Assembly: GCF_025685425.1 (NCBI RefSeq)
Contig: NZ_JAGTAS010000051.1
Location: 1-64,000 of the forward strand
Direction: 5' to 3'
From: Terriglobus albidus
Lineage (GTDB): Bacteria; Acidobacteriota; Terriglobia; Terriglobales; Acidobacteriaceae
DNA: 64,000 bases
In this document: positions 6,866 through 52,565 of the stretch, one piece after another
Layout: the number at the start of each line of letters is the position of its first letter
How positions within the stretch are numbered: position 1 is the stretch's first letter
The notes under the pieces: model-generated
Database searches by the model: none
Seen by the model: the letters and a program-made list of their open reading frames with translations, nothing else
Told to the model about the DNA's origin: nothing
Translations under genes and position numbers: made by a program

Positions 6866-7534
6866 TTATTACGGCCTCCATGTCTGCCGCAAACTACAGC
6901 AGACGAGTGTCGGGAGTATCGAAGGTGCAAAAATGATTGGCAAAGTATTTAACTGTGATAGCCCGGTTTCACCGTGAATACCACCGCAAGCCAGTCAATT
7001 TAAAGTGCTTACGTTCCACGTGAAGTTCAGGAAAGCACCGTTTTCATCGGAGAGCTGAAAAAGCAGGCTTGAAGCTTCTTTGTATTTCTCCCGCCTCTAA
7101 ATCTCCTGCGCGCAGCGCAACGATTCGGACCGAAGGTGCGAATCGTCTTGCTTAAAGGGGCGGCTTCCAGCCGTCCCATACCTCGCTGACGAAAGATCGC
7201 GGCTTCAGCCCCTGAGGAGGCTATGTATTTGGTCGAAACAGATTCCGCTTACGCTGGGAGTGACAAGAAGGAAGCTTCAAGTGGATGAATCTGACCTCAG
7301 CGGCTGAAGCCACCCCTTTCAGCCCCTGCTACGGGACGACTGAAAGCCGTCTCCTTAAGCACGACATTCGCGCGTAGCGCGAACAGACCGGAGCGACCAA
7401 GTTTTGTCCACTCTCAGAAGGTCTCGTCATCGATGTAGTCATCGCTGAACGCGGCGAAGGAGCTGAGTTTCGGCGGCGGCAAAAACTCTTCACGATTCAT
7501 GCCGCGAACCTTTAGAGACAGGACACTCGCTTTT
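6866..7534. repeat. Intergenic repeat region upstream of the TonB receptor
   Basis: No gene is seen. From ~7085 to 7400 there are small palindromes of the GGCTGAAGCC and TTCGCGC/GCGCGAA type. From ~7408 to 7527 there is a diverged copy of the family B element described at 49291 and 49642. It shares CTCAGAAG at the left, GGCAAAAACTCTT in the middle and GACAGGACACT at the right. Its right end is eight bases from the stop codon of the regulator gene (TAG, 7537-7535). The receptor promoter should lie in ~6866-7080, but I could not identify it. Confidence 0.6.
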
Positions 7535-8857
7535 CTACAGAACGTGATAGCAGACGACACTGCGCTGATAGGAATTACCGTTCAGATTCTGCGCCGAAAG
7601 CAGGATCTCAAAGTGAGGCAACGCTCCACCCTTATCCAGCGTGTGAAGGAAGGTAATAAACCGGGGACTCAGAAGAAACTCCGCGGCTGTTTCTGTCCCG
7701 GCCTTGCTGGTTCCACCAATCAGAAGCGAAGAGCTTTCCCCATCCAGGCTCGGAAGGTAGGAGATCACGCCATAGGCCAGGTGGTCGGCGCTGTCGGCGG
7801 CCTCATCGTAACGTGCCTGCTCACCCTTTCCGGGATTGCGGTTCTCCACCAGGTTGGTATGGGTTTTCGAATCGTAGCCCACACGGAAGCGCCCGGCGGA
7901 GGAGAAGAGATCGACCCATGGGTTCGCACGTGTACTGCCAATTAAGACGACGTTGTTCTGTTTTAGCTCGCTTACGCTGACATCCCGCGCAAAACGAACC
8001 TGCGTCTTGCTGTGGTCAACCTCTGGCAGACGCTCCAGGGCAGAGACCAACCTCAGGTCCACCACGTTCGTATATTGACTCGTCAGCAACTGGTTCCAGA
8101 TCCGGCTCGTTTCCGGCGGGGGAACTGTGCTGCGGTACTTCCGGTTCATGTAGTCCGACAACGTAATCTCGTTGCCGATAAGCTCATCCATGAGCACCAG
8201 GCTGCTATCGGCCGGAACAAGAATGGTCGTCCGGTTCGAATCGAAGATGCTGGCCCAGAAGCGTACCTCCACCGGAACTCCGGTGTGCCGATGCTCCTCT
8301 CCCCGTAGCCACCAGCCGATGCCCAGTGCCAGACACACGACTACGCCGACACTCGCCGCGACATACACCCAGAAATGCGATTTCTTCGAGGGAACGTCCG
8401 CCGAATCCCCATTGCCGACGGGTGACGGGGGATGGTCGGTCGAAGAAGGAACCAGGGGGACTGAAATGCTAACCGTCTCCTGTACCGCTCCTGGGGCAAG
8501 CTCCCGATAGTGAAACTCGGGCACATAGCTTCCCTTGGGAATCGTCAGGATGATGGGCTCGTCCTTACCCTCAGTCGCGAAGTACTCCTGCAGGCGAATC
8601 CGCAGGAAGCGTGCCTGGGAGCGGACGATGGAGTCCTCTCCCATGTGGTAGCCCTCGTTCCGGCCGAAGACCTCCGTACCGATACGCTGCTCGTTGATCG
8701 AGTCAGCCTTACCCATCTGCTGCTGCTCGCAGATGAACTGGAGGAAGGTCGCGAGCTTGCGCGACTTGCGAAAGAGCGCCGAAGAGAGGATACGGGAGAC
8801 AAGAAGCCGCTGCTGTTCTATCGATGGAGGGTCGGCAACAGGCTTCGCGGTAGACAT
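7535..8857 (-). CDS. Membrane-anchored regulator-like protein of unknown family
   Basis: 440 residues from ATG 8857, which has GGGGAG seven bases upstream. An in-frame ATG at 8890 lacks such a site. Residues ~10-110 form a helical domain (LVSRILSSALFRKSRKLATFLQFICE, RSQARFLRIRLQEYF, then IILTIPKGSYVPEFHYR). The last motif, basic and ending in KGSYVPEF, resembles the wing of winged-helix DNA-binding domains, so this is probably the cytoplasmic regulatory part. After a Pro/Ser linker there is one membrane helix (~165-185, WVYVAASVGVVVCLALGIGWWL). The ~250-residue C-terminal domain would be periplasmic. The layout is like CadC-type one-component sensors: DNA-binding domain, one helix, periplasmic sensor. 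It precedes the TonB receptor on the same strand, so it may control that locus. DNA binding is an inference. Confidence 0.55.
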   Translation of the reverse strand: MSTAKPVADPPSIEQQRLLVSRILSSALFRKSRKLATFLQFICEQQQMGKADSINEQRIGTEVFGRNEGYHMGEDSIVRSQARFLRIRLQEYFATEGKDEPIILTIPKGSYVPEFHYRELAPGAVQETVSISVPLVPSSTDHPPSPVGNGDSADVPSKKSHFWVYVAASVGVVVCLALGIGWWLRGEEHRHTGVPVEVRFWASIFDSNRTTILVPADSSLVLMDELIGNEITLSDYMNRKYRSTVPPPETSRIWNQLLTSQYTNVVDLRLVSALERLPEVDHSKTQVRFARDVSVSELKQNNVVLIGSTRANPWVDLFSSAGRFRVGYDSKTHTNLVENRNPGKGEQARYDEAADSADHLAYGVISYLPSLDGESSSLLIGGTSKAGTETAAEFLLSPRFITFLHTLDKGGALPHFEILLSAQNLNGNSYQRSVVCYHVL

Positions 8858-10216: not shown

Positions 10217-10536
10217 GTGCGAGTCACCATCCTGGGTGCCCATCCATGGCGAAGCCATGGGTGGGATGTGTTCGAGCGGCAGCTCGAATAGGTTTGGTCC
10301 TCGAATAGGTTTTGGATGGGTATTCCGGAAGGAGTGTGAAGCGGCGTTTTGGTTGCGGAAAAACATCCATAGATGCGGAAGCCTACTCTACACCTAGAGC
10401 ATTTTCCCTGTTGTTGGGTATCCCGGAAAAGGAGTGCAGCGGCGTTTTCATTGCGGAAAACGCCCATAGATGTGGATGCTCTGGGTTACACCTACAGGGA
10501 AAAATGCTCTAAAGCCCTTCCATGGAACCGGTCGTT
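10217..10536. repeat. Convergent intergenic region with palindromes and two family A copies
   Basis: No convincing gene; short open frames here are translations of the repeats. The order is: a GGGTGCCC/CCATGG palindrome (~10230-10265), a TTCGAGC-GCTCGAA hairpin (~10269-10292), a partial family A element (~10315-10394), then a complete family A element (10395-10511). It separates the convergent genes ending at 10216 and 10537. Confidence 0.65.
10395..10511 (+). repeat. Family A element (117 bp, TA-bordered inverted ends)
   Basis: It begins TAGAGCATTTTCCCTG and ends CAGGGAAAAATGCTCTA, so the ends are a near-perfect inverted repeat of ~15 bases with TA at each border. A second hairpin lies inside (GGCGTTTTC, six-base loop, GAAAACGCC at ~10440-10463). 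A degenerate partial copy lies directly to its left. Other copies are at 30758, 32083, 47772 and 49908. No transposase gene is present in the window. Confidence 0.8.
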
Positions 10537-15203: not shown

Positions 15204-15540
15204 AAGTTCGTGCACCCATGCTTTGGGTGCCTCATGTCCCCTTAGGGACATGGGTTGTTCGAGCGAAGCACGAATAGGTGAGAGCCGTGGACTTTCAGCC
15301 CACGGTCTAGCGGTTCAACAAGTAAATGGGCTTCAGCCCTGGGCCTTTTTCTTGTTAGACAGAGAACGCCCAGGGCTATAAAGCCCATTTACTTTACCGC
15401 TTTATCAGCGGGCTGAAGCCCGCTGACCACCCCAGCCAGCAAAGCTGGCCGGGGACCCGGCTGCTTCCATCCGGTTTCAGCCATGTTCCACGGTCTATTC
15501 AGTGAATAATTCGTCGATATCTATTCACTCGGCCCGCTAC
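15204..15540. repeat. Convergent intergenic region with family C palindromic module
   Basis: It separates two convergent genes. In order: a CACCCATGCTTTGGGTG hairpin, a CATGTCCC/GGGACATG hairpin, a TTCGAGCGAAGCACGAA hairpin, then the ~155-base family C module (about 15277-15431). That module contains GCCGTGGACTTTCAGCCCACGG, a long stem made of AATGGGCTTCAGCCC and its complement near 15375-15390, and AGCGGGCTGAAGCCCGCT. A further hairpin (CCAGCCAGCAAAGCTGGC) follows. No gene is seen. Confidence 0.7.
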
Positions 15541-23449: not shown

Positions 23450-23712
23450 GCACCATACGCCGGGTGCCCATGTCCCTCGGGGACATGGGCATTGGAGCGA
23501 CGCTCGAATCGGTGGGAGCCGTGGGCTTTCGGCCCACGGTCTATCGAGTGCAAGAAAAGTCGGGCTTTAGCCCTGGGGCTTCGTTCCGATGGGCAGAGAA
23601 AGCCCATTTACTTTAATCCTTTATCAGCGGCTGAAGCCCGCTGCTCCTACCACTTCCCCACTCAATAATTTTGACGAAAATCCGACTTGCTTCAACTCGC
23701 GCCGCCGCGTCA
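23450..23712. repeat. Convergent intergenic region with family C palindromic module
   Basis: It separates convergent genes. It starts with GGGTGCCC and CATGTCCCTCGGGGACATG hairpins and a GAGCGACGCTCGAA hairpin. The family C module follows (about 23511-23651). It begins GGTGGGAGCC, contains GTGGGCTTTCGGCCCAC and GGGCTTTAGCCCTGGGGC, and ends GAAGCCCGCTGCTCCTACC. No gene is seen. Confidence 0.7.
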
Positions 23713-29598: not shown

Positions 29599-30760
29599 GC
29601 ACATGCTGCCCAAAGGTCAGCGCCGCCGCACCGTCAAGCATGACTACCGCATCGCCCGCGATGCCGCGCGCGCCGCCGGTCTGGAAGAAGGCATCGACCC
29701 TGAACATGTCCTTGCTCCAGAGCACGAGATTCCCATCGCGGAACGCGTGATTCCACAACTCGAAGAAGAAGACCTGGAAGCAGAAGATGGCGTTCGCAGC
29801 TTCGCCGCCGATGCAGCCGCAAACGGCATGCGCCTGGATGCATATCTCGCCAAAGCCATTCCGGATATCTCACGCTCGCGCATCCAGCTTCTTGCCGATA
29901 ATGGCCAGATCTCCGTCAATGGCCAAAGGGCCAAGAGCAGTCTTAAGCTCAAGGGCGGCGATCAGATCTCCATCGAAGGCGAACCCCGGCCGGAGCCGCT
30001 GCGCGCCTTTGCCGAAGATATCCCGCTCACCATCGTCTATGAAGACAAAGACATCGCCGTCATCGACAAGCCTGCCGGCATGATGGTCCACGCCGGGGCA
30101 GGCGCTACCGATGACGCTCGCAACCGCGGCACGCTGGTGAACGCTCTGCTTGGCCACTTTGGTAAGCTGAGCGGCGTCGGCGGCGAGGAGCGCCCCGGCA
30201 TCGTCCACCGTCTCGATAAGATGACCAGCGGCCTGATCGTCGTTGCGAAGAACGACGTCATGCATCGCAAGCTGGCCCAGCTCTTCGTCGACCGCAAACT
30301 GGATAAGACCTACCTGGCACTCGTGCAGGGCTGGCTCAAGAAAGATGCGGTCATGCTCGACTTGCCGATCGCCCGTGACCTGGTACACCGCACCCGCATG
30401 ACCACCCAGCGTCCCGACGGAAGAGCCGCCGTCAGTCACATCAAGGTCGTGGAGCGTATCGAAGGCCGCTACGGCAAGTTCACCCTGGTCGAAGTCAAAA
30501 TCGAAACCGGACGCACCCACCAGATTCGTGTCCACCTGCAAGCACTTGGACATCCCGTCGTCGGCGACACGCTCTACGGCGCTTCTGGCTCTTTGCGTGA
30601 TGGGGAAGAGCGGATTCCGCTCGAACGGAATTTCCTGCACGCCTGGAAGCTGCACTTCTCTCATCCTTCCACCAGGAAAAAGCTGGAGCTCACGGCGGAG
30701 TTGCCTGCCGAGCTGGTAAATATCTTGAATATCGTGAAGGAGCGGGTAAAAAGCCGCTAG
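29588..30760 (+). CDS. RluA/RluD-family 23S rRNA pseudouridine synthase
   Basis: 390 residues. Residues ~1-75 are a charged N-terminal extension. An S4 RNA-binding domain follows (~78-140: RLDAYLAKAIPDISRSRIQLL, NGQISVNGQ). The catalytic domain (~150-370) contains VIDKPAGMMVHAG and the motif HRLDKMTSG with catalytic Asp210, then KTYLALVQG and GRTHQIRVHLQALGHPVVGD. It converts specific uridines in 23S rRNA or tRNA to pseudouridine; this arrangement is most like RluD (helix 69), though substrate is not certain. Translation is coupled to the Lgt-like gene by an 11-base overlap. The stop codon TAG (30758-30760) is the first three bases of a family A element. Confidence 0.88.
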   Translation: MPSKHMLPKGQRRRTVKHDYRIARDAARAAGLEEGIDPEHVLAPEHEIPIAERVIPQLEEEDLEAEDGVRSFAADAAANGMRLDAYLAKAIPDISRSRIQLLADNGQISVNGQRAKSSLKLKGGDQISIEGEPRPEPLRAFAEDIPLTIVYEDKDIAVIDKPAGMMVHAGAGATDDARNRGTLVNALLGHFGKLSGVGGEERPGIVHRLDKMTSGLIVVAKNDVMHRKLAQLFVDRKLDKTYLALVQGWLKKDAVMLDLPIARDLVHRTRMTTQRPDGRAAVSHIKVVERIEGRYGKFTLVEVKIETGRTHQIRVHLQALGHPVVGDTLYGASGSLRDGEERIPLERNFLHAWKLHFSHPSTRKKLELTAELPAELVNILNIVKERVKSR

Positions 30761-30875
30761 AGCATTTTTCCTGTAGGTGTTGTATAGGGCTTTGGCATCT
30801 ATGGGCGTTTTTCCACAATGAAAACGCCACTGCGCTCCTCTTCCGGGATACCCAGCAACAGGAAAAATGCTCTTA
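30758..30875 (+). repeat. Family A element supplying the stop codon of the pseudouridine synthase gene
   Basis: It starts TAGAGCATTTTTCCTGT, with this TAG in frame as the stop of the preceding gene, and ends ACAGGAAAAATGCTCTTA. The internal hairpin GGCGTTTTTCCACAATGAAAACGCC is retained. It is inverted relative to the copy at 10395. Removing the element and one TA would leave CGC-TAA-GGC, that is, a TAA stop at the same codon. Confidence 0.75.
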
Positions 30876-30975
30876 AGGCAAAAAGCCCGTAACAGGACTA
30901 CAGGCAGACATATTGGCGTGTTTCAGCGTCCAATCTGGTAGGTCTCCGGTAGAATTTGGGCCAGTGACTCCGACG

Positions 30976-32085
30976 ATGTTCAAAAATATTCAACGCGGTA
31001 CTTCGATTGCGTTTCTTTTGCTCGCCTGCTGCGCCTTTATCGCCGCTCAGCAGCCTTCTCCCACCCCCACACAGCCGACGCAGCAGGCCCAACAGCAAAC
31101 GCCGCAACCGCAGCAACAGACCGCGGCCCAGCAACAGACCCCGGCGCCCCAACAGGCCCAGCAACAGCCTGCGCAGCAACAGCCTACGCTGCAACAGCCT
31201 GCGCAACCGCAACCTGTGCTGCCCGGCCAACCGGGTCAGGAGTCGCCGCTTGATGTAACCACCATCAAAGGTATCGGTGCTCGCGAAGTTAACCAGATCT
31301 TTACCGTCACGGACAAGAAGGGGAAGTTCATCACCGGCCTGCGGCAACAGGACTTCGGCCTTCTCGACGACGGAAAGCGCCCGGAGCGCGTCATCCGCTT
31401 CACGCAGCAGACCAATCTCCCGTTGCGTGTCGGCATCATGCTGGACACGTCAAGCTCCATCCGCCAACGCTTCGAGTTCGAGCAGCAGGCGGCCGTCGAG
31501 TTTCTGCTACAGGTGTTGCATCGCCAGGATATGGCCTTCGTGGAAGGCTTCGATGTGCAGATCGACCTCGAGCAGGGCTTTAGCAACAACGTCGACCTGT
31601 TGAACCAGGGTATTCACAAGCTTCGTCCCGGCGGCGGTACCGCGTTATTTGATGCGCTGTACACCACTTGCCGCGATCAGATGCTGATGCAGGGTTCCGG
31701 ATATCGCAAAGCCATCATCATGGTCACCGACGGCGATGACAACTACAGCCACGCGCTCATGACCGACGCCATCAAGATGTGCCAGCGCGCCGAGACCATG
31801 GTCTACGGCATCAGCACCAACGTGAGCCCCACCAAGGACAAGGGCGACGACATCCTGAAGGCCATCAGCGAGGCAACCGGCGGACGAGCCTTCTACCCAA
31901 CACGCATCGAAGAGGTCGCCAACGGATTCCGCTCCATTGAAGAAGAGCTGCGCAGCCAGTATTCGCTGGAATACGTACCTTCGGACTTCAAGGCAGACGG
32001 ATCGTTTCGTACAATTTATCTACAGGCTCTCGATCCTCGATATAAGGTGCGCGCCCGTAAGGGATACTTCGCTCCACGTCAGTAG
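30976..32085 (+). CDS. Secreted VWFA-domain protein (acidobacterial VWFA-related type)
   Basis: 369 residues from ATG 30976. The signal peptide (IAFLLLACCAFIAAQ) is followed by a ~65-residue region made almost only of Gln, Pro, Ala and Thr (~residues 20-85), probably an extended linker. Then comes a short beta region (VNQIFTVTDKKGKFITGLRQ, FGLLDDGKRPERVIRF) and a von Willebrand A domain (~150-340). Its metal site is intact: DTSSS (DxSxS), the Thr in PGGGTALFDAL and the Asp in MVTDGDDN. The end, YKVRARKGYFAPR, is typical for the group. These proteins are very common in Acidobacteria, but their partners are not known. The TAG stop belongs to a family A element, and the fluoride riboswitch begins about 110 bases downstream. 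Confidence 0.8.
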   Translation: MFKNIQRGTSIAFLLLACCAFIAAQQPSPTPTQPTQQAQQQTPQPQQQTAAQQQTPAPQQAQQQPAQQQPTLQQPAQPQPVLPGQPGQESPLDVTTIKGIGAREVNQIFTVTDKKGKFITGLRQQDFGLLDDGKRPERVIRFTQQTNLPLRVGIMLDTSSSIRQRFEFEQQAAVEFLLQVLHRQDMAFVEGFDVQIDLEQGFSNNVDLLNQGIHKLRPGGGTALFDALYTTCRDQMLMQGSGYRKAIIMVTDGDDNYSHALMTDAIKMCQRAETMVYGISTNVSPTKDKGDDILKAISEATGGRAFYPTRIEEVANGFRSIEEELRSQYSLEYVPSDFKADGSFRTIYLQALDPRYKVRARKGYFAPRQ

Positions 32086-32170
32086 AGCATTTCCCTATAG
32101 GTGTAGAGTAGGCAATGAAAGCTCCGCTTGTACTTTTTTCGGGCTACCCAGCAACAGGGAAAATGCTCTA
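32083..32170 (+). repeat. Short family A element supplying the stop codon of the VWFA gene
   Basis: 88 bases, from TAGAGCATTTCCCTAT to CAGGGAAAATGCTCTA; the middle of the element, including most of the internal hairpin, is deleted. TAG at 32083-32085 is the in-frame stop of the VWFA gene. Removing the element and one TA would give CAG-TAA-ATC, a TAA stop at the same codon. It ends only 23 bases before the fluoride riboswitch, so it may carry part of the promoter used there. Confidence 0.8.
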
Positions 32171-32193
32171 AATCGAGGCTTTCAATAAGCTGC

Positions 32194-32259
32194 AAGGCGA
32201 TGGGGTTCCGCCTGAAACCGCCCCCGGACGATAAGTCCGGGGAGCTGATGACTCCTACG
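32194..32259 (+). promoter_or_regulatory. Fluoride riboswitch (crcB motif)
   Basis: The aptamer is recognisable from its conserved blocks. A stem AGGCG...CGCCT encloses the ATGGGGTTC loop, then GAAACCGC, then a GC-rich hairpin (CCCCGGAC, GATAA, GTCCGGGG), then the conserved 3' block GCTGATGACTCCTACG. GGGGT in the first loop can pair with ACTCC in the last block, forming the pseudoknot of the fluoride aptamer. It lies just upstream of a gene of the fluoride-antiporter CLC clade, which is the classical genetic association of this riboswitch. Confidence 0.92.
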
Positions 32260-32276
32260 AGAACGACCCGTAGGAG
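32252..32276 (+). promoter_or_regulatory. Expression platform: anti-Shine-Dalgarno hairpin
   Basis: CTCCTACG (32252-32259, the 3' end of the aptamer) is exactly complementary to CGTAGGAG (32269-32276), which contains the Shine-Dalgarno sequence five bases before the GTG start at 32282. Without fluoride the hairpin would hide the ribosome site. With fluoride bound, the CTCC bases are taken by the aptamer pseudoknot, freeing GTAGGAG. This predicts translational activation by fluoride. The exclusivity of the two pairings is read from the sequence; the direction follows from known fluoride riboswitch structure. Confidence 0.8.
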
Positions 32277-32281
32277 ATCGT

Positions 32282-33514
32282 GTGTCCCGAGTTCGTCAAT
32301 CGGCTGAAAAAAAACTATTCCCTTCGATTCTGTTATCTGCCGGCATCGGTATTGTCGCCGGCGCCGCATCGGCGCTTCTGATCGCCGCGCTGAATTGGGC
32401 CAATACTACACGCGAGCATCATCGCTGGCTGCTGGCGCTGCTACCGCTCTCCGGCTTCGCCGTGGGCTGGGTGTACTGGCGCTACGGAGGCCGTGCCGCC
32501 GGCGGCAACAATCTCCTGCTCGAAGAGATCCACGACCCTCAGGAGACAGTACCGTTGCGTATGGCACCGCTGGTGCTACTCGGCACCGTGCTGACGCATC
32601 TCTTCGGCGGCAGCGCAGGCCGCGAAGGCACTGCCGTGCAGATGGGCGCGTCGTTGGCGGAATGGCTTGCCGAGCTGTTCACCGAGCATCAGATGCGCCG
32701 TGCCGTGCTGATGGCCGGTATCGCCGGTGGCTTTGGCGGCGTCTTTGGAACGCCATGGGCAGGCGCCATCTTCGGCGTCGAGGTGTTGGCTGTGGGCTGG
32801 GTAGGCTGGTCCTCCGTCCTCGAAGGAATAGGCCCGTGCCTCATCGCCTCTTTTGCAGGTGATCTGACCGTACGCCTGATCGGAGTTCACCACACGCAGT
32901 ATCCCGTAGGCGCTCAGCCATCGCTCCAGCTCATGAGCTGGGTATGGGCGGCACTGGCGGGCATGGTCTTCGGGACGATCGCACGGCTCTTCTCCATGCT
33001 CGAACATGGCCTGACTGCATGGTTCAAGAGGATGTTTGCTTATCCGCCGTTCCGGCCGCTTGCAGGCGGTGCCCTGGTAGCCCTGCTGATCTGGAGCCTG
33101 CATGCGTGGCAGTTCGCCGGGCTCGGCATACCCTCGATCATTGCCTCCTTCGCCGGGCAGCAACCATGGTGGGTATGGGCAGCAAAACTCGGCCTTACAG
33201 CATTGACTCTGGGGGCCGGCTTTAAAGGCGGCGAAGTCACACCGCTCTTCTTCATCGGCGCAGCCGCCGGCAGCGCCATCTCCGCGGTAATTCCCCTCAG
33301 CACCGGCGCGCTTGCAGCCATGGGCTTTGCAGCAGTCTTCGCGGCGGCGGCAAACACACCCATCGCCGGCCTGATCATGGCGATTGAACTCTTCGGACCA
33401 CACACCGGCCTGCTGGCCGGTGCAGCTTGCATCGTTGCGTACCTCTGCTCAGGTCCTGTAGGTATTTACGCCGCGCAGCAACCAATGGAAACGCGCTGGA
33501 AATTCCGCCTTTAA
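32282..33514 (+). CDS. eriC: CLC-type fluoride/proton antiporter
   Basis: 410 residues, CLC fold with ~10 or more membrane segments. It starts at GTG 32282 with its Shine-Dalgarno inside the riboswitch hairpin. Diagnostic motifs are those of the CLC-F clade: GREGTAVQ at about 113-120 (Glu115 as gating glutamate) instead of the chloride-type GREGP, GGNNLLLEEI in place of GSGIP, and GGEVTPLFFIG in place of GxFxP. Family knowledge: CLC-F proteins export fluoride in exchange for protons and protect against environmental fluoride. The fluoride riboswitch directly upstream gives independent support, so this is much more likely fluoride than chloride transport. Confidence 0.9.
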   Translation: MSRVRQSAEKKLFPSILLSAGIGIVAGAASALLIAALNWANTTREHHRWLLALLPLSGFAVGWVYWRYGGRAAGGNNLLLEEIHDPQETVPLRMAPLVLLGTVLTHLFGGSAGREGTAVQMGASLAEWLAELFTEHQMRRAVLMAGIAGGFGGVFGTPWAGAIFGVEVLAVGWVGWSSVLEGIGPCLIASFAGDLTVRLIGVHHTQYPVGAQPSLQLMSWVWAALAGMVFGTIARLFSMLEHGLTAWFKRMFAYPPFRPLAGGALVALLIWSLHAWQFAGLGIPSIIASFAGQQPWWVWAAKLGLTALTLGAGFKGGEVTPLFFIGAAAGSAISAVIPLSTGALAAMGFAAVFAAAANTPIAGLIMAIELFGPHTGLLAGAACIVAYLCSGPVGIYAAQQPMETRWKFRL

Positions 33515-33786
33515 GAGGCCGGGTGCCCCATATCTCGGCATAGCCGAGATGTGGGAGATTCGCGCTACGCGCGAACCGGGTGGGAGCAGCGGGCTTCAGC
33601 CCGCTGATAAAGGATTAAAAAAATAAATGGGCTTTTAGCCTGGGCCTTCTTTCGACGGACAGAAAGAGCCCAGGGCTAAAAGCCCATTTCGATATTGAGC
33701 CGATAAACCGTGGGCTGAAAGTCCACGGCTCCCACCCGATTCGAGCTTCGCTCGAATCGCTATCTCGAATTGTTGCCACCACACCG
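33515..33786. repeat. Convergent intergenic region with family C palindromic module
   Basis: It lies between convergent genes. First come hairpins ATCTCGGCATAGCCGAGAT and TTCGCGCTACGCGCGAA, then the family C module in inverted orientation (33579-33736). The module begins GGTGGGAGCAGCGGGCTTC, has a long stem made by AATGGGCTTTTAGCC and AGGGCTAAAAGCCCATT, and ends CCACGGCTCCCACC. A GATTCGAGCTTCGCTCGAATC hairpin closes the region. No gene is seen. Confidence 0.75.
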
Positions 33787-44963: not shown

Positions 44964-45275
44964 ACCAAAAGCTCGCGTTTATCGTCAGGGATAGCCACGT
45001 TGGCTATTCCTTCGCCTTGATCGGCCGATGTCTCCAAAGATCCTTTACAGATTGAGGCAGCGTGTGACGCTACTGTCGTTGCCCACCCGCACAGCGCATC
45101 CCGTTTCGCACAGCAGGTGCGAATGTCGTGTCTAAGGGGACGGCTGAAGGCCGTGCCCTTAAGCAAAACATTCGCGCTACGCGCAAACCGCTTTTTGTTT
45201 GTCATTTCGTAGTGACCAACGGGAACGAAGAAATCTGCTTCTCTACCACCGCGCCGAATTTCCCAACTCCGCCTA
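44964..45275. repeat. Convergent intergenic region with small palindromes
   Basis: A hairpin of GGATAGCC and GGCTATTCC (44989-45011) follows the cysS stop by 25 bases and may end that transcript. Between ~45098 and 45195 there are palindromes of the TTCGCACAGCAGGTGCGAA, GGACGGCTGAAGGCCGTGCCCTTAAG and TTCGCGCTACGCGC types. No gene is seen. Confidence 0.55.
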
Positions 45276-47771: not shown

Positions 47772-47888
47772 TAGAGCATTTTCCCTGTTAGGTGTAGAGT
47801 AGGGCTTCCGCATCCATGGGCGTCTTCCGCAATGAAAATGCCGCTTCACGCCCCTTCCGGAATACCCAGCAAAAGGGAAAATGCTCTA
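47772..47888 (+). repeat. Family A element upstream of the wzy-like gene
   Basis: It runs from TAGAGCATTTTCCCTGT to GGGAAAATGCTCTA, with TA at both borders and the internal complementary segments GGGCGTCTTCC and GAAAATGCC. It has the same orientation as the copies at 30758 and 32083. It ends 28 bases before the GTG start of the polymerase-like gene, so it could influence that gene's transcription or leader. Confidence 0.8.
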
Positions 47889-47916: not shown

Positions 47917-49293
47917 GTGATTGTGTGGTGGTACTGCACATATTTTGCGTGGCTCGCATTACAGAACATCGTCGCGCCGTATGTCTACCACGCCGGTCTG
48001 CTTTCCCTGGAACAGACCTACGTCCTGATGGCGGCAAAGGACGCTATCCTGTTCGTCGCCATTCTGCTGCTATCCGTCCGCGTCTTCCGAAAAGATTTTA
48101 AGTGGCATTGGATCGACACCTGCGCCTGCGGCTACATGGCTCTTCTCGCAGTCTATGTTTTCGTCCCCGACTGGCTCCATCTCGACGTTCCTTTCCCAGT
48201 CAGGCTGATCACTTATCGCGCGCAGACAGCGCTGGTGATGTTCTATCTCTGGGGACGCTTCACCCGGCTTCGCTGGTCCCAATGGAAATCCATCGCCATC
48301 TTCCAGATCGTGATGCTGGCAGCCGCTTCGGTTTTTGGCATTTTCGAACGGTTCATGCTGCCACTTTCATTCTGGAGTAGAACCATCGGCGTAAGCGACT
48401 ACCTCCTCGACGTGAAAAAGCTCGACAGCAACCTGAATGTTCAGGATGGCTTGCCTTCGAATCTCTTTCACTTCGGTCTCCGGCGGCTACTTTCCGTTTA
48501 TGCCGATCCTCTTGGCATGGGAACCGCCTGTGTTTTCCCCTTGGTAGCAGCAATCGCAATTATGCTTTGCCTGAGGCGGGAGCGGGATCCAGATAGGATG
48601 AAATGGATCCCTTACTATCTCTGGGCCGCAACCCTGATCGCGATTGCCTTGCTGCTGACAATCGGTCGCGAATCGATTGGAGTAGCCTGCGTTGCGATCC
48701 TGGTGCTCTGCATCGCCCTCGGAGAGACACGTTTCCTGCGCGCCCTTGGTGTTCTGGCTTTTCTCTCAATCCTGATTAATCCGTCCGTCACTAAATTCAT
48801 CGTTGATACCGTCACCTTTCAGGAGTCGAGTGCTATCGCGCATCTCAACCTTCTTTCCACGGGGCTTCAAGATCTATCCACGCTGTTGGTCGGACATGGT
48901 GTCGGAACTACCGGCGCCTGGGCCACTTCCTTGGGAGTACATGAATTGACCGACATCGGGGAAAGTTCATACCTTGAACTGGCTGCACAAGGCGGTGCCG
49001 CGACGCTAGTAGTGTTTCTCGCTTTCCTGATCGGGCTCTCCCGCTGGCTCTGGATGACGGCGAGACGTTGCGACGATCCTGTCTGGAAGGGTATGTTCCT
49101 CGCCATCAGCACCTCCCTGATTGCGCGACTTATCTTCGCGGTATTCTCACCCTCTTTTTTTGCGCTGATTCCAATGGCAAACATGTTCTTTCTGGCTGGA
49201 GCCGCACTGAGCACCGTGAACCGTATTTCATTCGAGCCGGAGAGCGTTCTCGTGGAAGAAAGCACAGAGACCGAATTGGAGGTATATGCCTAG
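47917..49293 (+). CDS. O-antigen polymerase/ligase-like (Wzy/WaaL) membrane protein
   Basis: 458 residues with about eleven membrane helices, starting at GTG 47917 with GAGGTAAGG upstream. A larger external loop lies after ~residue 280, and the region RESIGVACVAILVL and GHGVGTTGAWATSLGVHEL... with GESSYLELAAQGG fits the Wzy_C pattern, in which loop residues handle lipid-linked sugar chains. It would polymerise or ligate the repeat units made by the downstream cluster. It lies apart from the main operon, between a family A element upstream and a family B element whose first bases form its TAG stop (49291-49293), and it is convergent with the SLBB export gene. Confidence 0.7.
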   Translation: MIVWWYCTYFAWLALQNIVAPYVYHAGLLSLEQTYVLMAAKDAILFVAILLLSVRVFRKDFKWHWIDTCACGYMALLAVYVFVPDWLHLDVPFPVRLITYRAQTALVMFYLWGRFTRLRWSQWKSIAIFQIVMLAAASVFGIFERFMLPLSFWSRTIGVSDYLLDVKKLDSNLNVQDGLPSNLFHFGLRRLLSVYADPLGMGTACVFPLVAAIAIMLCLRRERDPDRMKWIPYYLWAATLIAIALLLTIGRESIGVACVAILVLCIALGETRFLRALGVLAFLSILINPSVTKFIVDTVTFQESSAIAHLNLLSTGLQDLSTLLVGHGVGTTGAWATSLGVHELTDIGESSYLELAAQGGAATLVVFLAFLIGLSRWLWMTARRCDDPVWKGMFLAISTSLIARLIFAVFSPSFFALIPMANMFFLAGAALSTVNRISFEPESVLVEESTETELEVYA

Positions 49294-49416
49294 GGTGGTG
49301 TCTCAGAAGTTCTTGTCATAAATGTCCTGAACTTAGTGAAAGACCTGCTTTTTCGACGCTCCGGACGGCAAAAACCCTTAATGATTTATGCCGTGAACTT
49401 CAGGGACAGGACACTA
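49291..49416 (+). repeat. Family B element, copy 1, supplying the stop codon of the wzy-like gene
   Basis: It begins TAGGGTGGTGTCTCAGAAG and ends GACAGGACACTA. The ends are an imperfect inverted repeat (TAGTGxxxTGTCxCxGAAGTTC type). TAG at 49291-49293 is the in-frame stop of the preceding gene; removing the element with one TA gives GCC-TAG-CTG, again a stop at the same codon. A second copy lies at 49642-49773 in direct orientation, and a diverged one at ~7408-7527. Confidence 0.75.
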
Positions 49417-49641
49417 GCTGCCATGGCGTGAGAACAGCCAAGTATCGAGCGCAAGCTCGATCCGGTGGGAGCCGTGGGCTTCAGCCCACGGATCAGCGGC
49501 CTAAAAAAATTGGGCTTTAGCCCTAGGCTTTCTTATTCCATAAGCGAAAGCCGGAGGCTAAAGCCATTCATTTTTGTGCCTCAAATCAGCGGGCTAAAAG
49601 CCCGCTGCTCCCACCCAATTCGAGCTTCCCTCGAACGTTTC
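49417..49641. repeat. Family C palindromic module between two family B copies
   Basis: A TATCGAGCGCAAGCTCGAT hairpin is followed by the module at 49464-49615 (GGTGGGAGCCGTGGGCTTC to GCCCGCTGCTCCCACC) and a TTCGAGCTTCCCTCGAA hairpin. It separates convergent genes and is bracketed by direct copies of family B. No coding sequence is seen. Confidence 0.7.
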
Positions 49642-49773
49642 TAGTGAGGTGTCTCAGAAGTTCTTGTCATAGATGTTGTCGTCCTGAACGTAGTGAAAGA
49701 CCTGCTTTTTCGACGCTCCGGACGGCAAAAACTCTTAATGATTTAGGCCGTGAACTTCAGGGACAGGACACTA
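49642..49773 (+). repeat. Family B element, copy 2
   Basis: 132 bases from TAGTGAGGTGTCTCAGAAG to GGGACAGGACACTA with TA at each border. It is highly similar to copy 1 (shared AAAGACCTGCTTTTTCGACG and CTCCGGACGGCAAAAAC blocks) and carries a 6-base addition near the left end. From 49774 to about 49907 I see no feature. Confidence 0.75.
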
Positions 49774-49907
49774 GTACCTCTACCGCTCCGACAGGGATTC
49801 GGCGCCGCCTGCTGAAGACGTTGGTCAACGATAAAACCCAAACTCATAGTCGGCCCGGCGTCCAAAACTGCGCCTGCACTGTCGCCCCTGTTCCAACACT
49901 GTTTGGA

Positions 49908-50006
49908 CCATTTTCACTGGGTATCCCGGAAGAGGAGTGCAGGGCGTTTTCATTGCGGAAAACGCCCACAGATACGAATACCTTGGACTACAGGGAGAAT
50001 GCTCTA
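49908..50006 (-). repeat. Family A element, left end degraded, supplying the stop codon of the SLBB gene
   Basis: Read from the minus strand it begins TAGAGCATTCTCCCTGTAG, and TAG (50006-50004) is the in-frame stop of the export gene. The internal hairpin GGGCGTTTTC/GGAAAACGCCC is perfect. The far end is truncated near CATTTTCACTGGGTATCCC. Relative to its upstream gene it has the same orientation as the copies at 30758 and 32083. Confidence 0.75.
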
Positions 50007-52565
50007 GCGGCTTGCCAGAACACTCACTGTCGCCGCGCCTAATGCGAACTGCGAGAAAAGTTGTGAGTAGTCGAGGACCGTACGGAAACCCGAAATCTTG
50101 ATCGGTTTGTCGGGAATCACAATCGTATCTCCGGGATAAATAGGCAGCTTTTCGAAAGACGCGTGTTCCCTTCGTTTCGCCGACGTACGCCCGATAACTG
50201 AGCCATCCGCTCGAATCAGAAAAGAATGTTTCGGGTCTGCACCCGGGCGCAGATCGCCTGCGGCTTCCAGATAGTCCCTGAGCTTCCATGAAGATGAATA
50301 GCGAAGCGAGGTCTGTGCAAACACCGCGCCGACGACGTTCACCACCATCGGCCGCGACGGGACCCGCAGCACATCTCCGTTCTCCAGCTCAACCGCTCCT
50401 AAATCATCGGGCAACGATGCGGACGGCTCCAGCCCAAGCACGATCCGTCCTGTCGCATGTACCGCCTGCAAGCGCGCGATCTGGTTTTTCTGCGCATCCA
50501 CCGCACTGGAACGGAGACCCGCCTCTTCGGAAGAAGCTGCTTTCATCTGCTCACGGGCCGAAGCGCGATCCAACTCCAGGGCAACCGATGTCAGATATTC
50601 GTCAAGCCGCTGCTGTTGCATTATCCGCGTCGATTCGCGTGTGAAAGAGGCGCCATAAAGATAAGCGCTCCGCGTGAAGCCGCCCGCTCTCCTGATGACA
50701 TCGGTCAGTGTCTCATTGGGTTGCACACTATAAACGCCGGAGCTGACGAACTCTCCTTCCAACCGGATATAACGTGTCTGTTGTTCCCGGCTGGCGACCA
50801 CATCCAGCTGCGAAAAGATAGTCACCACATCGCCCGGTAGAAGAGGTAGATTCTGAGTTGCGTCATGCTCGTCAACCAGCTTCCCTAAATTGAACGGCAG
50901 CAGTTCACTATGCAACGTCTGAGGATTCAGACGCTCAATTACCGCGTAGTTCCAATTGATCTCCGGGGCCGCGATCGTCACTGTAGTACGCCGCTCCGAT
51001 GGATCTGCGGTCTGGATCCCGAGAGGCGAAGGGGAGTTGCTCGTAGAGCGCTGGGAAGACACCCTGCCCGCCTCCGTTGCCGCAGGGGTTGATTGCCGTT
51101 GAAAACTGAGAATGGGTACACCCAATTCATTGCGATGTTCCCAATATCCCGGTGTAAGCAACGCCGGTTTCTCAGGAAGAATGTCTGAGAGCCTCATGCC
51201 CGGTTTCCATCCGAAGCGCCCGGGCTCTGCGACGTTTCCGCGCAGCGTTACGGTGTTGTCGTATTCGTGGCGAAGAACGCCGACGCGCAGCAAATCGCCG
51301 TTCCGCAACGGCTGATTCGCCATCGCGACATCGTTCACAGCGATCTCGGTAGTAGTACGTCCTTTGCCCTTTTCCACCCGTTCCAAAGAGACACGCCCAT
51401 CCCCCGCGGCCGCGGCGGAGTAGCCACCCGCCAATGCCACTGCCGCCGAAAGCGTCTCTCCCTCGCGGATCTCATAAATTGCAGGACGCTCCACACCGCC
51501 CACCAACGCTACCTGTGGCCCGACGGTGGGGATGAAGATGATATCCCCGGGCAGAAGGCGAAGATCCTTAAGACGATCTCCACGCTGCAGAAGATCATAG
51601 AAGTCAAAAATAGCGGCAGTCTTACCGTCGCGCCGCAGTTCGATACTCCGCAGAGAACCATGGACCGATGGCCCGCCAGACGCCATCACCGCATCCACCA
51701 GTGTGCTCAGGGCACTGACGGTATATGTTCCTGGCCGTACCGCGTCTCCAAGAACGACAATAGAGATCGAACGGAGATGTCCGAGGTCGACAGACAGCGA
51801 GAAGTTGCGGAAGCTCTTCCGAAGCGTGCTTTCAAGAAATTGCTGTAGTTCGCTGAACCGGAGCCCCGCCACCCGTACCGATCCAAATTGCGGAACGTAG
51901 ATGTTTCCGCCGCGGTCGACCGTGAGCTGCTCATTCCGCGACTCGGCTCCCCATAACCGCAGAAGGATTTCGTCCCCAGGGCCAATCACATAGTCGCCGG
52001 TAACCTGCGCAGTCGGGCCAGGTGCAAAGGTGGAAGGAACTCCATAGAAGAGCTCTCGCCCATATACCGGAATCAGCTCTCCGGTCGACTCTCGCACCAT
52101 CTGTTGCATCGCACTCAAAGGTTGCCCCGCAAACAACACGGTTCCATCGGATGCTCGCTGAAACAACGTCCCCTTCGGAATGCGATCGAAGGATCGGTCC
52201 TGTATTTGGTCCTGGTTGCGATCCTGATTCCGCGGATCCAGGTTTCGAAGATCCTGGTTCCGAGGATCCTGGTTCCGAGGATCCTGGTTTCGCGGGTCCT
52301 GGTTTCGCGGATCCTGGTTTCGCGCTGGAGTACGCTCGTCCGTCTGTGGCAATCCCGCGGAGTCCACATACACCGAGGGTCGCTGCACGCTCGCTGCTCC
52401 CGCGCCCGTATTGCCGCCGGCATTACCACTTGGATTGCTGCGCGCCATGCACGCCGCGCTGTCCGCCGAAGCTGGGTCGGAACAATCGGACTGGGCGATT
52501 GCCAAACGAACCGTCAACAATGAGATAACACAAAGCAACGCACGGGAACAAAACCGGAAATGCAT
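50004..52565 (-). CDS. SLBB-domain polysaccharide export protein (Wza/OPX-like)
   Basis: 853 residues, far longer than E. coli Wza (~380). The signal peptide (ALLCVISLLTVRLAIAQ) lacks a lipobox. Residues ~80-120 are a run of RNQDP pentapeptides, encoded by near-identical 15-base repeats. Next comes the polysaccharide export domain (~190-270: VTGDYVIGPGDEILLRLWG) and then several SLBB domains (SISIVVLGDAVRPGTYTVSAL, ALVGGVERPAIYEIREGETL, IRLEGEFVSSGVYSVQPNETL, PMVVNVVGAVFAQTSL). A C-terminal hydrophobic segment (LFSQFALGAATVSVLA) could cross the outer membrane. It would form the envelope exit channel for the polysaccharide of the downstream cluster. It is divergent from the flippase gene by 83 bases. 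Confidence 0.88.
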   Translation of the reverse strand: MHFRFCSRALLCVISLLTVRLAIAQSDCSDPASADSAACMARSNPSGNAGGNTGAGAASVQRPSVYVDSAGLPQTDERTPARNQDPRNQDPRNQDPRNQDPRNQDLRNLDPRNQDRNQDQIQDRSFDRIPKGTLFQRASDGTVLFAGQPLSAMQQMVRESTGELIPVYGRELFYGVPSTFAPGPTAQVTGDYVIGPGDEILLRLWGAESRNEQLTVDRGGNIYVPQFGSVRVAGLRFSELQQFLESTLRKSFRNFSLSVDLGHLRSISIVVLGDAVRPGTYTVSALSTLVDAVMASGGPSVHGSLRSIELRRDGKTAAIFDFYDLLQRGDRLKDLRLLPGDIIFIPTVGPQVALVGGVERPAIYEIREGETLSAAVALAGGYSAAAAGDGRVSLERVEKGKGRTTTEIAVNDVAMANQPLRNGDLLRVGVLRHEYDNTVTLRGNVAEPGRFGWKPGMRLSDILPEKPALLTPGYWEHRNELGVPILSFQRQSTPAATEAGRVSSQRSTSNSPSPLGIQTADPSERRTTVTIAAPEINWNYAVIERLNPQTLHSELLPFNLGKLVDEHDATQNLPLLPGDVVTIFSQLDVVASREQQTRYIRLEGEFVSSGVYSVQPNETLTDVIRRAGGFTRSAYLYGASFTRESTRIMQQQRLDEYLTSVALELDRASAREQMKAASSEEAGLRSSAVDAQKNQIARLQAVHATGRIVLGLEPSASLPDDLGAVELENGDVLRVPSRPMVVNVVGAVFAQTSLRYSSSWKLRDYLEAAGDLRPGADPKHSFLIRADGSVIGRTSAKRREHASFEKLPIYPGDTIVIPDKPIKISGFRTVLDYSQLFSQFALGAATVSVLASR
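52210..52328. repeat. 15-base tandem repeat inside the SLBB gene
   Basis: About six to eight units of a 15-base repeat (typical unit CGAGGATCCTGGTTC on the plus strand) encode the RNQDP pentapeptide run. Units near the centre are identical or differ by one base, while those at the edges are degenerate (RNLDP, RNQDQ). Because the unit is a multiple of three, copy-number changes keep the frame. Confidence 0.8.

Follow-up and report, generated by a model that had tools for sequence, protein, structure and literature searches.

RUP, a 107-bp repeat of Streptococcus pneumoniae whose proposed mobiliser is the insertion sequence (IS) IS630-Spn1 (PMC2229807, PMC3049150), is enriched between convergent genes and seems to target IS elements; the available text on it gives no stop-codon count. 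BOX, a modular repeat of the same species for which a different transposase has been proposed, encodes the stop in 36 of the 58 genes that it overlaps, without strong evidence of truncation, and section 9 of PMC3049150, where this is reported, contains neither a base-exact TA insertion nor an empty-site test. The termini of GTAG-REPs (REP, repetitive extragenic palindrome) and of TIRYT-associated repeats, which lie near gene ends, often give a TAG stop; in the available portions of PMC3733652, GTAG-REPs are palindromes of 20–40 bp with GTAG at one end and a Y1 transposase as partner. QMITE1 and QMITE2 of Coxiella burnetii, both miniature inverted-repeat transposable elements (MITEs), in several instances share a few bases with gene 3′ ends, with overlaps of 1 to 50 bp and no stop-codon rule in the available text (PMC5896051). 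Here we describe a short non-coding element, family A, found in a 64,000-nucleotide stretch of the Terriglobus albidus genome (GCF_025685425.1, labelled G000; positions 1–64,000 of the forward strand of contig NZ_JAGTAS010000051.1, hereafter the window). A third of its copies sit on stop codons, where the element's own border regenerates the stop that it has entered.

The family A consensus is 116 bp long, palindromic and TA-bounded, and its two ends are alike: the termini read TA followed by GAGCATTTTCCCTGT, the arms of the terminal inverted repeats span 17 bp (TAGAGCATTTTCCCTGT), and the outer sequence is TAGAGCATTTTCCCTGT at one end and ACAGGGAAAATGCTCTA at the opposite end. At no more than three mismatches, G000 (6.1 Mb in 58 contigs) contains 692 family A ends (346 + 346), against only 4 (3 + 1) for a reversed control pattern at the same setting, and the ends show no strand bias once all those of contig C28 are counted. 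Size, TA-bounded inverted repeats, TA target, a link to the IS630 family and a hundred-copy scale are all shared with RUP, which is the nearest kin of family A in mechanism, although RUP has a proposed partner IS and family A has none that we found in G000 or in a second genome of the genus, G128. With BOX, family A has in common that the repeat supplies the stop codon, the sequences being different; unlike GTAG-REPs it has like ends and duplicates its TA target; and the QMITEs share its overlap with gene 3′ ends but not its fixed position. Repeats that supply stops are therefore already published, in BOX and the GTAG-REPs. What is new is family A itself, together with a rule exact to the base that empty sites prove, and figures (from two genomes, orthologues lacking the element and a weighted null) where the available sections on BOX and GTAG-REPs give words or raw counts. 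Our literature search, mostly outside subscription journals, returned no title on this element or on Acidobacteria MITEs at stop codons among the matches listed.

We counted how often the borders of family A coincide with stop codons in 1.2 Mb of contig C28, taken in order regardless of elements, together with the window (1.26 Mb in total). Genes came from our own Markov caller, which is not a standard program (833 genes in C28, of which 82.5% is coding, and 38 in the window), elements were located by profile, and a copy was scored as a stop case when its border TA is the in-frame TA of a stop codon. By this measure 38 of 105 copies lie at a stop, where the availability of TA dinucleotides (586 in stop codons, 7205 intergenic) would lead one to expect 8.3 (p = 3e-16). 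G128, a single contig of which we sampled 1.2 Mb, gives the same picture, with 24 of 73 copies at a stop against 5.0 expected (p = 5e-11). Element borders are thus closer to stops than random TA sites would be, and the coincidence is exact: any distance other than zero between a border and the stop it faces is represented by at most two copies, in either genome. Leaving out the 14 G128 copies that are shared with G000, the pooled count is 57 of 164.

Within the window, three of the six family A copies show this arrangement, and the gene calls end where the initial annotation had placed the shared TAG. The RNA pseudouridine synthase gene at 29603–30760 (plus strand; PF00849 and an S4 domain) closes on the first TAG of a copy at 30758–30875 (plus), and the VWA-domain gene at 30964–32085 (plus) closes on that of a copy shortened to 88 bp at 32083–32170 (plus), whose excision leaves TAA. 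On the minus strand, the SLBB (Poly_export) polysaccharide-export gene at 50004–52109 takes its stop from the border TAG at 50006–50004 of a copy whose far end is worn (49906–50006). Pfam agrees with the names originally given to all three genes.

The arrangement extends to other genera of the family, where the border TAG closes a long upstream frame at 21 of 51 element ends (5 of 16, 8 of 18 and 8 of 17), the +1 and +2 frames at the same ends being closed in 0 and 5 cases only. For G116 and G089 the analysis covered 20 stretches out of the 26 end matches listed, the list giving the first places of each genome, plus loci from the same search. At one locus of G089 (L146), a single element closes two convergent frames, one at each end. 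TAG is an unusual choice for the commonest stop codon of a bacterium, and in C28 and the window it holds that place, with 326 of 871 called genes. Because 299 TAA and 287 TAG stops remain after element-borne ones are removed, the elements account for only a little of this frequency.

If a border TAG has replaced a stop codon without altering the protein, removal of the element together with one TA should restore a stop at the same codon, as the initial annotation had proposed from three cases. We find that the far-end TA and the base following it spell TAA or TAG wherever the two borders of a stop case could be read, in 43 of 43 (26 + 17; 24 with G and 19 with A), the far end being unreadable in the other 19 of 62. 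Comparison between genomes provides direct evidence. C28 is colinear with 1.56–2.73 Mb of G128, as judged from the positions of 15 genes; 40 G000 copies could be mapped onto G128, where 14 are shared and 26 absent, and 30 G128 copies were mapped back onto G000, with 14 shared. At 12 clean empty sites the flanks lie exactly two bases apart in the genome that lacks the element, and those two bases are TA in 11 cases and TG in one, the TA insertion with TA duplication characteristic of an IS630-derived MITE. Eighteen stop insertions (11 + 7) are absent from the other genome, and we read the orthologue where the flanks were at most 60 bases apart (9 + 4); all 13 orthologues so defined, two of which we take from their C-terminal sequences to be PurH and MreB, stop with TAA or TAG at the predicted codon, and none reads past it. 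The remaining five, with gaps of 80–385, fall outside this reading.

These results bear equally on the thought that the elements disrupt genes by introducing premature stops. A TAG border would indeed halt any frame entered in phase, and 12 of the 170 insertion sites lie inside called genes. However, taking the element out gives back a stop in all 43 cases that could be read, and the stop stands at the same codon in 13 of 13 orthologues read, which rules premature termination out for the stop cases read and leaves it next to no chance as a general account.

We consider it probable that family A is a MITE derived from an IS630-family (Tc1/mariner-type) IS, that it inserts at TA with a preference for C-TA-G or TA-R, and that stop codons are frequent and harmless targets. 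On this model an IS630-type transposase would insert the element into a TA dinucleotide and duplicate it, choosing C-TA-G by preference and TA-R less strictly. Stop codons of the TAA and TAG type contain a TA that fits this choice, and the first base of the element, a G, re-forms TAG in frame and so leaves the protein unchanged. Since insertions at other places in genes would mostly be lost, stop codons would make up a large share of the targets that are tolerated; the element would lie so often exactly on a stop because TA is its target and the codon is rebuilt by the letter with which the element begins. Such an element offers a clean, base-exact example of mobile DNA multiplying into the hundreds with hardly any cost, and annotation of gene ends in these genomes should take element-borne stops into account.

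The target preference can be read at insertions away from stops, where the base following TA is G in 53, A in 20, T in 20 and C in 7 of 100 border readings (A or G in 73), corresponding to enrichments of 2.3-fold for G, 0.8- to 1.0-fold for A, 0.7-fold for T and 0.2- to 0.3-fold for C. At 41 stop sites the base before TA is C in 16, T in 10, A in 8 and G in 7. Weighting each TA by the bases that adjoin it at non-stop sites raises the expectation in the G000 sample to 14.5 of 105, still well short of the 38 observed (p = 7e-9), and in the pooled samples, weighted over one to six flanking bases, 62 of 178 copies lie at stops against 22–23 expected. We prefer a null confined to short gaps between convergent or tandem genes, with weights over one to four bases taken from 95 non-stop insertions, since the scarcity of insertions farther than 200 bp from starts probably reflects genes that our simple caller missed. 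Under this null, gaps of up to 100 bp hold 37 insertions at stops against 29–30 expected (ratio 1.7–1.8, the lower limit of the interval lying near 1), gaps of up to 200 bp hold 49 against 29–31 (2.5–2.7), and gaps of up to 300 bp hold 51 against 27–29 (2.8–3.0). The abundance of stop TAs, their being permitted and their fit to TA-R thus account for 14.5 of the 38 stop cases when all of the G000 sample is taken, and for 29–31 of 49 in gaps of up to 200 bp. The initial annotation had held that chance would not place so many insertions on stop codons; the excess is real, but these raised expectations qualify the claim.

We infer that most of the pattern is made by neutrality together with target preference and not by gene ends being actively recognised. 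Two observations count against so simple an account. A 1.7- to 3.0-fold excess at stops remains unexplained after flank weighting; and purifying selection alone would make the TAs just upstream of starts the emptiest, whereas those within 49 bp upstream of starts were hit at 39 of 2,425, not below the 29 of 2,430 at 3–59 nt past stops. (Distances were binned for 158 of the 170 sites, the 12 inside called genes being left out, and A after TA was weighted at 0.98 where 0.84 was measured, which slightly inflates the expectation at stops and so works against our reading.)

The residual excess makes insertion bias and selection directly testable against each other, and it lends some colour to the idea that integration is actively drawn to the stop codon or to the region of translation termination, over and above the TA and CTAG preference. 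This we regard as on balance unlikely; a form of it in which stop codons as such attract insertion, perhaps because DNA is accessible where translation ends and the nascent RNA is bare, is a shade less likely again. In its favour are the flank-weighted ratios in gaps of up to 200 and up to 300 bp, the finding that unshared insertions lie at stops no less often than shared ones do, and a flank-weighted rate in G000 that remains high through the first 16 nt after the stop before falling (3.3% at 0 nt, about 2.7% at 3–16 nt and about 0.7% from 17 nt onwards). The hot zone at 3–16 nt does not replicate, however: G000 has 11 insertions at 381 sites there, G128 one at 344. Moreover, in gaps of up to 100 bp with the widest flanks the ratio is 1.71 with an interval of 0.97–3.11, and we know of no mechanism that ties IS630 transposases to translation termination. 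Were the idea true, stop codons would form a dispersed landing pad across the whole genomes of a bacterial family. The earlier suggestion that integration favours gene ends is less well supported than the anatomy of the insertions: some of the pattern is plain C-TA-G and TA-R preference acting on permitted stop TAs, with the 1.7- to 3.0-fold residue left over.

Selection might instead retain copies at stops that act as 3′ ends, as terminators or stabilisers of mRNA, in the manner suggested for REPs, which in the available portions of PMC3733652 are proposed to act post-transcriptionally. The consensus RNA of family A does form a long hairpin (−53.9 kcal/mol, z = −6.3), and the orientation of copies at stops is weakly biased (38 versus 24, p = 0.098). 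Yet a scan for terminator-like sites (a hairpin with loops of 3–8 bases and a T run) found none in the copies at 30758–30875 and 32083–32170. Stops in operon-like tandem gaps (0–39 bp) are hit at 14 of 176, much the same rate as the 33 of 564 in tandem gaps of at least 40 bp; the arms have not diverged less at stops (3.0 versus 2.2 mismatches of 17, p = 0.17); and the older, shared insertions are no richer in stop cases (4 of 14, versus 11 of 26 unshared, p = 0.50). With no clear support from terminators, operon-like gaps, orientation or shared insertions, this second suggestion of the initial annotation seems to us improbable, more so than active targeting.

To return to the IS630-derived MITE that we favour, the case for its transposase comes from relatives, where IS630-family transposases lie between A-like ends at L281 and L271 (both in G062) and L264 (G014), and beside a single A-like end at L277 (G104) and L269 (G089). 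The resemblance of the ends at these five loci, found in relatives only, is moderate, at 12–15 of the 17 terminal bases. It amounts to 14 and 12 of 17 for the 1017-bp IS at L281, 13 and 12 for the 1031-bp IS at L264, 13 at one end of the 1025-bp IS at L271, whose other end also reads TAGAGC, and 15 at the L269 end when compared with the G089 version of the element. Matches to NF033545 exceed the curated cut-off at L264, L277 and the longer frame of L271 and fall below it at L269 and in both frames of L281 (44 and 46 bits), the latter locus also having a PF13358 match above its cut-off. In the IS shared by L281 and L286, 29 bases of the left end of family A align exactly at the terminus, with a score above 40 shuffles. 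Of the two ends at L281, the one upstream of the transposase resembles the AGGTGTA end of family A and the other its TTGCTG end. In all, an end scored above all 40 shuffles at four of nine loci tested (L277, L281, L283 and L286). The base preferences point the same way. IS630 itself is said to prefer CTAG targets, as the title of a 1991 paper by Tenzen and Ohtsubo, cited in PMC2170065, has it, and the C-TA-G preference of family A agrees with this. IS630-family elements insert at TA and duplicate it, according to the available text of PMC2170065.

This part of the reading, too, meets with contrary evidence. L264, L269, L271, L278, L287 and the second end of L281 did not rise above the 40 shuffles, and the IS ends match family A at only 12–14 of 17 bases, when the best chance matches in other parts of such loci attain 12 or 13. 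None of the PF13358 loci of G000 (two) or of the single-contig G128 (two) has A-like ends. A candidate autonomous copy was also sought in C28 among five pairs of ends 419–3776 bp apart, and rejected, the longest frames not being transposase-like by eye. From these loci and end pairs it follows that the partner in G000 and G128 has been lost or goes unseen, an absence compatible with a MITE, since such elements can outlive their partner; movement of the family A copies by an IS630 transposase is accordingly something we infer.

A Y1 transposase (RAYT or TIRYT), such as moves GTAG-REPs and TIR (terminal inverted repeat) repeats, might equally have been thought to mobilise these palindromes: the GTAG-REP termini described above often supply TAG stops, TIRYT genes occur in Acidobacteria including Granulicella mallensis (both in the available portions of PMC3733652), and G000 holds 10 Y1_Tnp matches. 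We find a family A copy within 3.3 kb at only two of these 10 loci, about the background density, and at none is the Y1 gene flanked by a pair of copies, on which ground a Y1 partner was rejected. Nor is there a GTAG tag at one end, the base before TA varying and being G at just 7 of 41 stop sites, and family A has like ends and a duplicated TA. The Y1 explanation is accordingly very improbable.

Family A also occurs beyond G000. Among 150 genomes of Acidobacteriaceae, 20, G000 included, have A-like ends at no more than one mismatch, and the same setting gives zero ends in the same-genus genomes G031, G095 and G148. Exact 20-base ends also occur in Granulicella mallensis X5P3, Bryocella elongata and other Acidobacteriaceae records. 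Three further exact 20-base matches (L293, L310 and L312) come from two Paludibacteraceae metagenome-assembled genomes and one from Desulfobacterales, and may reflect contamination, transfer or, given the size of the collection, chance. At L007 (1501–1863, from contig C42 of G000) and other loci, family A forms head-to-tail arrays with a period of about 115 bp and few joining bases, as if copies had inserted at their own borders or undergone amplification.

A second and rarer element, family B, is about 130 bp long with ends TAGTGT...ACACTA. In the two samples together it has 17 matches scoring 40 bits or more, of which six lie at stops, as does one weaker match, a raw count that carries no chance expectation; family B behaves like family A in this and is probably also an IS630-derived MITE. 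In the window, the copy at 49291–49417 (plus) provides with its first TAG the stop of the gene at 47917–49293 (plus), as read in the sequence, and its excision leaves TAG; the 'wzy-like' label first given to this gene was not borne out, there being no Pfam match. A full second copy at 49642–49774 (plus) lies away from stop codons. A worn copy at 7402–7529 (plus) lies eight bases from the stop, a TAG, of the gene at 7535–8857 (minus; no Pfam match), the spacing originally described.

The other family A copies of the window are intergenic and away from stop codons at 10395–10511 (minus) and 47772–47888 (plus), with a partial copy at 10314–10396 (minus) adjoining the former. Further repeats include a third dispersed family at 15258–15312, 23492–23546, 33701–33736 and 49464–49508, a palindrome of the form GGTGGGAGCCGTGGGCTT...AGCCCACGG without TA borders in the copies shown; a 46-base repeat in inverted copies at 236–281 and 45100–45145, which holds a CGCACCTGCGGTGCG-type hairpin; and a 15-bp tandem repeat of about seven units at 52220–52324. 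An Rfam scan of the window at the gathering score matched no RNA family to the element, its sole match being a fluoride riboswitch (RF01734, 53.7 bits) at 32187–32264, directly after the family A copy at 32083–32170 and before the gene at 32282–33514.

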